Shown here: positions 27,395-29,410 of the stretch, in pieces | How positions within the stretch are numbered: the first letter of the stretch is position 1 | Layout: every line of letters begins with the position of its first letter | DNA from: Arenibacter algicola | GTDB taxonomy: Bacteria; Bacteroidota; Bacteroidia; Flavobacteriales; Flavobacteriaceae | Assembly (NCBI RefSeq): GCF_018860365.1 | Contig: NZ_JAHKPO010000018.1 | Coordinates: forward strand, 124,001 to 188,000 | Direction: 5' to 3' | Length of the DNA stretch: 64,000 bases | Notes under the pieces: generated by a model | What the model was told of the DNA's origin: nothing | Databases searched by the model: none | What the model saw: only the letters and a program-made list of their open reading frames with translations | Made by a program: the position numbers and the translations under genes

Positions 27395-27928
27395 TTAATT
27401 GCAAATACTGCAGTTGGAATCCCCAACGAGCTTGCCCTCATTGTTTATTTCAAATTTACAGCAAGCATTAAAATTATGGATAAGAAGTGATTTAGCGCGC
27501 CTAATTCTTGCTTTTACGTTGGCCAAGCTAATTCCCATCATTTCTGCTGCCTGGCCCTGGGTCTTGCCCTGTAGGTAAACCAAATGAACCACTTCTTTGT
27601 ACGGTTTGGGTAAATTGGTTACAAATCGATCAAAGCAACAGAAATCCTGGTAGCTATCGTATGTGGATGAAATTTCATTCAAAGGGCTTTGCAAGGTTTT
27701 GATGGCAAGGTTGTAATAATTGGCAATTTCATTTCTAACAATAGTAAATACCCAAGCCCTAACCTTTTCCGAGTCCTTTAAGGTGTCAATTTTTTGATGG
27801 ATTTTAAGGAAGGCATTCTGAATTATTTCCCTGGTAGCTTCTTCATCCTTCACTTTTTTCAGAATAAAAAAGTAGATTTCACTATGGTGCTTTTTCCAAA
27901 TGGCTGCCGTTTCAATCTTCATACCCAT
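27395..27928 (-). CDS. sigZ: SigZ-type RNA polymerase sigma factor with cysteine-rich tail
   Basis: A sigma-70 family (ECF-like) factor resembling Bacillus SigZ. I use the ATG at 27928 (177 residues). The longer frame starts with TTG at 27937, and an ATG at 27922 is a further option. Region 2 is KIETAAIWKKHHSEIYFFILKK through AWVFTIVRNEIANYY, and region 4 is FVTNLPKPYKEVVHLVYLQG through SLANVKARIRRAKSLL. Three features fit SigZ: a Cys-Cys pair before region 4 (DFCCFDRF), a second pair at the start of the tail (NACCKFE), and CSIC near the C terminus. No anti-sigma factor gene is adjacent. A cysteine-rich peptide gene lies 36 bp upstream on the same strand, with a stem-loop between. Confidence 0.88.
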   Translation of the reverse strand: MGMKIETAAIWKKHHSEIYFFILKKVKDEEATREIIQNAFLKIHQKIDTLKDSEKVRAWVFTIVRNEIANYYNLAIKTLQSPLNEISSTYDSYQDFCCFDRFVTNLPKPYKEVVHLVYLQGKTQGQAAEMMGISLANVKARIRRAKSLLIHNFNACCKFEINNEGKLVGDSNCSICN

Positions 27929-27935
27929 AATATAC

Positions 27936-27961
27936 AAGGTTGGCCTTGAAAGACCAACCTT
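27936..27961 (-). promoter_or_regulatory. Stem-loop in the leader of sigZ
   Basis: An 8-bp perfect stem (AAGGTTGG and CCAACCTT) with a 10-nt loop lies between the stop of the cysteine-rich peptide gene (27965) and the sigZ ATG (27928). Read on the plus strand it is followed by a T run like a terminator, but there is no plus-strand gene. On the minus strand it would fold in the intercistronic RNA, 7 nt before the ATG. Confidence 0.5.
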
Positions 27962-27964
27962 TTT

Positions 27965-28078
27965 TTAACAACATTCACATTTATTGCAATCGCATTTGCT
28001 GCACGGACAGTTTTTTTCCAAACAGTTGACACAATTACATTTGGTGCATTCGCACTGGGTACATTTACAATTATTCAT
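27965..28078 (-). CDS. Metallothionein-like cysteine-rich peptide, 37 residues
   Basis: A short gene on the minus strand: ATG at 28078, TAA at 27965, 37 codons. It encodes 14 cysteines (38 percent of residues) arranged as C-x-C and C-x-x-C units, for example CKCTQCECTKCNCVNC at residues 4-19 and CPCSKCDCNKCECC at 24-37. Other residues are mostly Asn, Lys, Thr and Glu, with no signal peptide. The pattern is that of metallothioneins or short metal-sequestering peptides, which bind Zn, Cu or Cd through thiolate clusters. The ATG is preceded by TTTTAGGA, a weak ribosome-binding site. SigZ follows 36 bp downstream on the same strand. I know of no named family for it. Real by composition and context; metal binding is inference. 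Confidence 0.75.
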   Translation of the reverse strand: MNNCKCTQCECTKCNCVNCLEKNCPCSKCDCNKCECC

Positions 28079-28294
28079 TCCTAAAAGATTTTAAGTTTAT
28101 TAAGTAGACCAAAACTTGCCTAAAAGGATACAAAAAAAGGTGTGTTTTTTTCTACATTATTTCAGCATGTGGAACAAGTTACTGGTTTATGGAGCCCAAA
28201 AAATATATTTTTTACAGGAATGCTCTCTAAAAATTTATTCAACTGCTAAGCCCACTTTCTTTGGGAATATAGCCATAAACAGTAATACCAAAAC

Positions 28295-29410
28295 TCAGAA
28301 TATTTTCTGTGTTAATCCCTTTGGTTGTATGGTGTCACTAGTGATCACTTCAAAATCTATTATGCCCAAAACCAATTCTTCCTGGGTAAGCACCTCCACT
28401 TTCCATAAGCCTTCGACTAAATTGTTTTTATAGGTGTAACCGCGATAACCGCCATCCCTACCACCAGTGATGTCATAACCGATATCCTCTATAATTTCCC
28501 ATTCCTGGGTTGTATTATTAAACCATTTCCAACGATGAAATACCGATTTCTCCAAACTGGTCGGGGCAAATATGGACGAAAAAACATAGACATCTTCATT
28601 GGGCTTCTGTATGAATTTTAGTCTGTGTTTTCTCCAAAATACGTACCATTCATCAGTTTCATAGGTAACAAGGTAGTTATTGTTTTCTACCTTAACTTGA
28701 TGCGCAACAATACCATTGCTCAAGGCAAGGGGTACTGGAGGGATAAGCCTAAAAAAATAGAATATATTGATTATTAGGTATATGGAAAACACTATTCCAA
28801 TGAGTTTTCCCAGATGTATTTCGGCCCTTGTGCTAGGACTTGCACGATAAATAATAGCGATAAGTGCCAGGGTAGTAATTAAACTTATTAGACCCGAAAG
28901 TATAAATATATTGGGATTCATTTCCTTGATCAACACGGGTACCATAAAGGTGAAGAAGGTGAAACTGATAAAGAAATATACGCTGAACTGTAAGTACTTA
29001 TTGGATATTCTTTTTTTTAAAATTTCATTGGCAAATAGTAATACAAGGAGTATGATCAGGAAGAAAACGGTTTTGGACATGGATACACTACGCGAGTAAT
29101 AAATGACATAAGCACTGGAGAGACCACCGAAGAAAAATTGTATGGCCAAGGGATAATATTCCTTAAACCTTTCAAGTATGGTATTGTTCCATTTACCATC
29201 ATCAGCTAGATTGTAGAGGTAGAGCGTAATGGTCAAGGAGGTCATATGAAGGCAGAGTACGCTAAGGTCATATAGCCGGTCTATGCGTCCTAAGGTAAGG
29301 GTGTCAAATATAAATCCGCCAATGAAAAATAGGATTGGAGCATATTTTTCATGCTTTCTTATAAATCTCAGTAATCCGTTATTCCTAAACTGTACCAAGC
29401 TTCCTTTCAT
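28295..29410 (-). CDS. DUF2914 membrane protein
   Basis: A 371-residue protein with an N-terminal membrane part of about eight hydrophobic segments (residues 20-235) and a C-terminal DUF2914 domain (about 250-365). The domain shows its family signature VYVFSSIFAPTSLEKSVFHR, then GGRDGGYRGYTYKN and GLWKVEVLTQE. The N-terminal half is common in Bacteroidota and proteobacterial DUF2914 proteins. The DUF2914 part probably forms a beta sandwich outside the cytoplasm. Function is unknown. It lies 216 bp upstream of the cysteine-rich peptide gene on the same strand, but the gap suggests separate transcription. Confidence 0.85.
   Translation of the reverse strand: MKGSLVQFRNNGLLRFIRKHEKYAPILFFIGGFIFDTLTLGRIDRLYDLSVLCLHMTSLTITLYLYNLADDGKWNNTILERFKEYYPLAIQFFFGGLSSAYVIYYSRSVSMSKTVFFLIILLVLLFANEILKKRISNKYLQFSVYFFISFTFFTFMVPVLIKEMNPNIFILSGLISLITTLALIAIIYRASPSTRAEIHLGKLIGIVFSIYLIINIFYFFRLIPPVPLALSNGIVAHQVKVENNNYLVTYETDEWYVFWRKHRLKFIQKPNEDVYVFSSIFAPTSLEKSVFHRWKWFNNTTQEWEIIEDIGYDITGGRDGGYRGYTYKNNLVEGLWKVEVLTQEELVLGIIDFEVITSDTIQPKGLTQKIF

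Follow-up and report, generated by a model that had tools for sequence, protein, structure and literature searches.

The question raised by this locus is whether a cysteine-rich peptide encoded directly upstream of a sigma factor gene forms a functional pair with that sigma factor and, if so, to what such a pair would respond. Metallothioneins are very small proteins without aromatic residues, in which more than about a quarter of the residues are cysteines arranged in CxC and CxxC motifs; the bacterial metallothioneins SmtA, which occurs with SmtB, and MymT are very short and cysteine-dense. In the window, i.e. the whole stretch of 64,000 nucleotides of Arenibacter algicola DNA that was analysed, a frame of this kind precedes the gene of a SigZ-like ECF sigma factor, and an earlier note on this DNA had suggested that the two may form a metal or redox sensing pair. 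This suggestion is partly supported: the pairing was found to be conserved, and of the two kinds of signal, metal is the one favoured. To the reading that the locus is a two-gene autoregulated metal-response module, consisting of a promoter, a metallothionein-like peptide gene, a hairpin and a sigZ-like gene and working as proposed in the last section, we assign a probability of roughly 60%.

The metallothionein-like peptide and the SigZ-like sigma factor

Table 1 Features of the module in the A. algicola window
Feature	Position	Strand	Remarks
ECF-type promoter	28105..28131	-	GTATC 28131-28127, 17 nt, GTCTA 28109-28105; 53 nt before peptide ATG
Metallothionein-like peptide gene	27965..28078	-	37 aa, 14 Cys, no His, no aromatic residue
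Hairpin between peptide and sigma genes	27936..27961	-	AAGGTTGGTC-loop-GGCCAACCTT; weakly terminator-like here
SigZ-like ECF sigma gene	27395..27928	-	Start at ATG 27928 (homologues favour 27922); last base of stop codon 27395
Linker Cys-Cys (CCFD)	27635..27640	-	Second Cys invariant in 21 aligned module sigmas
C-terminal Cys tail	27401..27463	-	CC 27463-27458, CxxC 27412-27401; four Cys invariant, 21 sigmas aligned

Translation of the minus-strand frame described in the earlier note gave the same 37-residue product, MNNCKCTQCECTKCNCVNCLEKNCPCSKCDCNKCECC (Table 1), which is short, polar and dominated by its 14 cysteines, is devoid of H, F, W and Y and in size, cysteine content and lack of aromatic residues corresponds to the metallothionein definition given above. 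The window peptide had no match in Pfam, NCBIfam, PHROGs and the PDB sequences, and four other peptides likewise had none in Pfam and NCBIfam, where the curated metallothionein families were sought; a widespread peptide gene is thus unrecognised by all family libraries searched. Two types were distinguished, type A being like the peptide of the window (37 residues, 14 cysteines) and type B comprising 32-34 residues, e.g. MKNKECTCNCDPCKAGKCSQCICDNCTCTNCNC with 11 cysteines, and the spacing of the CxC and CxxC motifs is exact and conserved among the peptides. Within the set of 29 peptides of exactly 37 residues and 14 cysteines (out of 85 module loci), both TGT and TGC are used at all 14 cysteine positions and no other residue ever occurs there; several non-cysteine positions, e.g. 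N2, T7 and N18, are almost fixed. When its own genome was searched with a profile, no further copy of the peptide turned up; a type A profile matched 24 of the 397 genomes of the family draw, once per genome, with 22 of the 24 matches adjoining a sigma gene according to their coordinates. Two orphan 14-cysteine peptides (in genomes G376 and G239) have no sigma gene in the 5-kb stretch examined and no SigZ-like match in the family search, which suggests an independent function for the peptide. The peptide is probably metal-binding.

The peptide stop codon is followed on the same strand by sigZ, 36 nt later, as the earlier note had it, when ATG 27928 is taken as start, or 42 nt later with ATG 27922, which fits the homologues better. 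The sigma factor is composed of the Pfam domains Sigma70_r2 and Sigma70_r4_2, and its top family matches are the SigZ families TIGR02959 and NF007215, each under its cut-off (122.1 versus 168.65 bits and 131.8 versus 212 bits, respectively) and hence short of SigZ equivalog level; the sigma factor of a type B member scored 147 and 162.6 bits against the same families. In its own genome it is the sole close SigZ homologue found, the 19 other matches being weak (best E value 5.5e-11, 26% identity). The two Cys-Cys pairs and the CSIC motif ascribed to it were all located, one pair (CCFD) in the linker, the other past the sigma-4 domain and CSIC at the very end. Alignment of 21 module sigma factors revealed invariant cysteines in the linker (residue 98), which contains either CC or a single C, and in the tail (residues 156, 157, 173 and 176). 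An AlphaFold2 model (three sequences) has a mean pLDDT of 73, falling to 48 in the last block, and predicts a long last helix ending at the CC, beyond which come two short strands and the CxxC end, the latter poorly predicted; a fold search with the model returned ECF sigma factors, as expected. Sigma factors without the peptide, too, often have a CC close to the C-terminus, and CC alone is therefore not specific.

Co-occurrence and co-inheritance of peptide and cysteine tail

Comparison across genomes confirmed the initial observation as real and the pairing as wider than this strain. A genus search yielded SigZ-like matches in 16 of 18 genomes (20 loci); all 15 strong matches have an upstream peptide with the full 14 cysteines, so that the frame is conserved in the homologous loci, on which the earlier note had made its case depend, and all five weak ones (32-36% identity) are without it. 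The module is present in Arenibacter echinorum, A. palladensis and Patiriisocius marinus. At least 101 of 397 genomes were matched in a family search (109 loci, up to eight candidates scored per genome), which does not imply absence from the others. With the exception of that of G064, which is cut at a contig end and was dropped, the family loci (108) were combined with those of the genus search into 125 distinct SigZ-like loci. A tail was defined as CC-x7..9-GxLxG-..-CxxC and a peptide by at least 8 cysteines and 13% cysteine; 83 loci possess both, 39 neither (among them L027-L030, which are near-identical, and some that come in pairs from a single genome), one the tail only and two the peptide only, figures which are a description and no blind test because the tail pattern was picked after the sequences had been seen. 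Tallied at this threshold instead of the at least 10 cysteines in under 50 residues named in the earlier note, the occurrence of such a peptide before sigZ is strongly positive.

The tail-only locus (L136 in genome G242) has neither peptide nor promoter, and directly upstream of its sigZ lie what we take to be a tRNA-like fragment and a GIY-YIG-like frame. In one of the two loci with the peptide only, L031, the final CxxC of the sigma tail is gone; the other, L097, carries a sigma gene broken by two stops, which was scored as tail-less because the script missed the tail that the short last piece still reads. In a tree of 142 sigma factors, for which the root is the midpoint only, a branch (99/90) sets apart 88 peptide-bearing sigma factors and one with tail but no peptide; among these, type B is a clade (100/93), and so is type A (100/99), which holds the single loss. 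Peptide types A and B track their own sigma clades, a pattern pointing to co-inheritance of the pair, and the one-sided split, like the 125 loci, bears out a link outside the strain. Beyond the family, a phylum search (162 matching genomes, up to eight candidates scored per genome) led to 30 loci that were examined, among which three have the module (L155, L160 and L162); L155 nests among family members in the tree, which hints at transfer.

Co-occurrence of tail and peptide almost without exception (three mixed loci) and their joint inheritance might also mean that the peptide acts on the sigma factor directly, binding its cysteine tail as an anti-sigma partner or metal donor, with metal buffering as a secondary role. 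Also in favour of this, the two flanking proteins scanned matched no anti-sigma family in Pfam, which agrees with the statement of the earlier note that no anti-sigma partner is adjacent. Co-inheritance is, however, expected for any operon, orphan peptides persist without a neighbouring sigma gene, and the peptide is short, polar and cysteine-dominated; we consider a direct partner of this kind unlikely.

Promoter, hairpin and candidate targets

The promoter and the hairpin are parts of the module beyond what the earlier note had observed. The promoter motif consists of GTATC (type A) or GCATC (type B), a spacer of about 17 nt and GTCT. Of 86 module loci (including one duplicate, L011 = L047), 82 have an exact regular-expression match ahead of the peptide gene, mostly 53-54 nt before the ATG, and the four misses comprise three near-matches (L033, L050 and L051) and a misplaced start (L062). 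Among the sigma genes that lack the peptide, 4 of 39 (L094, L096, L098 and L134) also show a motif of this kind close to where they start, as do 4 of the 19 loci L164-L182 (L166, L167, L169 and L170; in L164 it lies 434 nt away from the sigma start). Such motifs in peptide-less loci fit autoregulation, which may be older than the pairing of peptide and sigma factor.

The spacer between the two genes has a median length of 52 nt (84 loci). Among spacers of 30-90 nt, 67 of 70 fold at z < -2 relative to dinucleotide shuffles, compared with 5 of 37 control stretches upstream of peptide-less sigma genes. In the type A spacers (n = 29, including L045 and L049, both without the stem), changes on both sides occur at nine of the ten stem pairs and 97.7% of cells pair, values reached by none of 500 shuffles; a search of Rfam gave no match. 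The T-richness past the stem is uneven (at least six T in 12 nt in 40 of 70 spacers, by a crude count), and for many loci the hairpin is likely to act as a leaky terminator.

A frame with 14 cysteine codons among 37, followed by a conserved, covarying hairpin, could instead be a cysteine-responsive leader peptide, whose product would be inert and in which stalling at the cysteine codons would act via the hairpin on the expression of sigZ; short polycysteine frames reportedly serve as cysteine-responsive attenuators in mycobacteria, an observation credited to Canestrari in 2020. Stalling would require neither the exact CxC and CxxC spacing nor the conservation of several non-cysteine residues, and the hairpin sits past the stop codon. 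Moreover, a leader peptide should have no purpose without a downstream gene, but 14-cysteine frames were found in G376 and G239 with no sigma gene beside them. These points make an attenuator improbable.

A strict form of the motif was scanned in 80 of the 86 module genomes (G004, G005, G008, G009, G108 and G289 not being included) and gave 88 sites, sorted by hand into 68 at the module operon and 20 elsewhere, versus 12 sites for the reversed pattern. Per genome, 51 have the operon site only, 19 have another site and 10 have none. In the own genome, the operon promoter is the only match of a longer pattern at 0 or 1 mismatch; L138 and L139 (short pattern) and L142 (two mismatches) do not precede a convincing gene and were rejected as second targets. 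Fourteen of the 20 sites elsewhere were inspected, two of which lead to a cation-efflux gene (G100 and G217) and one to a DUF3703 gene (G326); the other 11 were discarded, as no convincing gene is next to them and three lie inside a longer frame. The sigma factor seems, from the distribution of the motif, to control little besides its own module.

The site in G100 is located between a gene that we take from its sequence to be rpiB and a cation diffusion facilitator gene (PF01545, E = 1e-48), 51 nt before the latter, and that in G217 lies before rpiB, which precedes the same kind of cation-efflux gene; in G381, a relaxed match was found before rpiB. Homologues of the efflux protein gave 33 matches in 52 genomes, 30 of which were scanned: a strict or relaxed site in or before the rpiB-efflux pair is present in 3 of 30 loci (reversed pattern 0 of 30) and missing from 27, and only G381 counts as an additional find because the sites in G100 and G217 came from the genome-wide motif search itself. 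In a few genomes, an efflux gene appears to have joined as a target. In 29 of the 30 loci (L243-L272) the rpiB-like frame precedes the cation-efflux gene, a conserved arrangement in which a sugar isomerase accompanies a metal exporter. DUF3703 was dismissed as a general target, since the gene occurs in 18 of 67 module genomes but the motif precedes it only in G326 (L237) among 19 loci; eight proteins encoded beside DUF3703 genes at seven loci were scanned, and metal-related families were obtained at three of these loci (HlyD and FUR-like; MerT with HMA; FUR-like) and not at the others.

That the signal might be thiol or oxidative stress, with disulfides in the sigma tail exerting control and the peptide acting as a thiol buffer, is suggested by the paired cysteines in linker and tail, which could form disulfides, and by a SigZ-like relative preceding thioredoxin, permease and oxidoreductase genes on an A. 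algicola plasmid, but clustering of CxC and CxxC is typical of metal-thiolate clusters and the cation-efflux gene is the only recurrent extra target found, so that this signal, too, has little probability.

Proposed mechanism and comparison with known systems

For the autoregulated metal-response module, the following mechanism is proposed. A thiophilic metal ion in the cytoplasm would bind to the cysteines of the sigma linker and tail, and the metal-bound sigma factor would then use the GTATC/GCATC-N17-GTCT promoter; transcription would yield much peptide, the hairpin would pass less sigma message and thereby set the ratio of peptide to sigma factor, and the peptide, by sequestering the metal, would take away the signal and turn off the operon. 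The mechanism builds on conservation, linkage, promoter motif, hairpin, cysteine sites and co-inheritance, all of which are established by sequence. Metal homeostasis is favoured by the metallothionein-like nature of the peptide, the invariant cysteines of linker and tail and the SigZ-type sites at cation-efflux genes in three genomes. The flanking frames differ in size and strand between module loci, which fits a closed two-gene unit; downstream of several type B loci a convergent pair of 131 and 147 residues recurs. A stricter version would be a minimal closed circuit, in which a metal-sensing sigma factor transcribes about one operon, encoding a metallothionein and the sigma factor itself, the hairpin determines how much buffer is made relative to sensor and the metallothionein shuts the sensor off by withdrawing its metal; we put this forward tentatively, as possible rather than probable.

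The sigma factors closest to this proposal are CorE and CorE2 (formerly ECF44 and ECF238), which, according to the passages available, have conserved cysteines in the sigma2-sigma4 linker and in a C-terminal extension of their own, through which CorE is controlled (PMC8999054, PMC3107203). For CorE of Myxococcus xanthus, these passages describe the linker CXC and the cysteine-rich C-terminal domain as both essential for activity (PMC8999054) and give the extension as 38 residues with six cysteines (PMC3107203). The module sigma factor likewise has sigma2 and sigma4 domains only and a cysteine-rich C-terminus with four invariant cysteines, but this tail is shorter and follows another layout (CC, 7-9 residues, GxLxG, CxxC), and the linker contains CCFD or, in other module sigma factors, CC or a single C in place of CXC. 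Because the cysteines are alike in place and not in motif, we state likeness to CorE and not membership, and by analogy the module sigma factor may work like CorE. Their targets differ as well, CorE being reported to activate cuoB and copB (PMC10141476), whereas the detectable target of the module sigma factor is its own metallothionein-like operon. SigZ (TIGR02959 and NF007215; Priestia, Vibrio) is the best-scoring sigma family, but in the one Priestia and one Vibrio region inspected no cysteine-rich peptide lies upstream of sigZ and the C-terminus is different. With SmtA and MymT the window peptide shares its very small size, cysteine density and CxC/CxxC motifs; these are under a metal-responsive regulator, SmtB in the case of SmtA and, as reported in the passages available (PMC10141476), RicR in that of MymT, whereas the window peptide matches no family of Pfam or NCBIfam and is paired with a sigma factor instead of a repressor.

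Metal-sensing ECF factors and metallothioneins are already known; what appears to be undescribed is the peptide-sigma pairing, together with the hairpin and a set of targets nearly confined to one operon. In the titles, abstract openings and passages of the literature covered, which include few subscription papers, no pairing of a metallothionein with SigZ or any other ECF sigma factor was found for Bacteroidota and no function is described for the SigZ-like group, which now gains a predicted function and a promoter sequence. The available passages on a Flavobacterium psychrophilum transcriptome report seven ECF sigma factors and a CGT-box motif, the module operon not being among them (PMC9723704). 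In the stricter version, the closed circuit, the module would be the equivalent, built on a sigma factor, of the known pairs of repressor and metallothionein, passed on as one unit throughout the Flavobacteriaceae. If the circuit works as proposed, it would be a natural metal sensor of very small size that combines positive feedback, differential output and feedback by its product, and would be a metal defence of Flavobacteriaceae that had gone unrecognised.

Some features of the neighbourhood and of other SigZ relatives deserve mention. Upstream of the module, positions 28295-29410 of the window encode a large protein ending in a DUF2914 domain, and a frame of equal or near-equal length (370-376 residues) is found upstream in nine other Arenibacter loci. 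SigZ relatives without tail and peptide are followed after about 50-85 nt by a frame presumed from its sequence to be PhzF-like in all nine loci inspected (L099, L105, L107, L108, L112, L115, L116, L119 and L121), which constitutes another stable sigma-target pair. Genome G007 has four SigZ paralogues (L027-L030) that score equally and share one C-terminus, located within the first 1.7 kb of four contigs, a placement suggesting a repeated or mobile element with a sigma gene. On the A. algicola plasmid pSMS7 (L275), the order is a SigZ-like sigma gene followed by thioredoxin, permease, oxidoreductase and DoxX genes.
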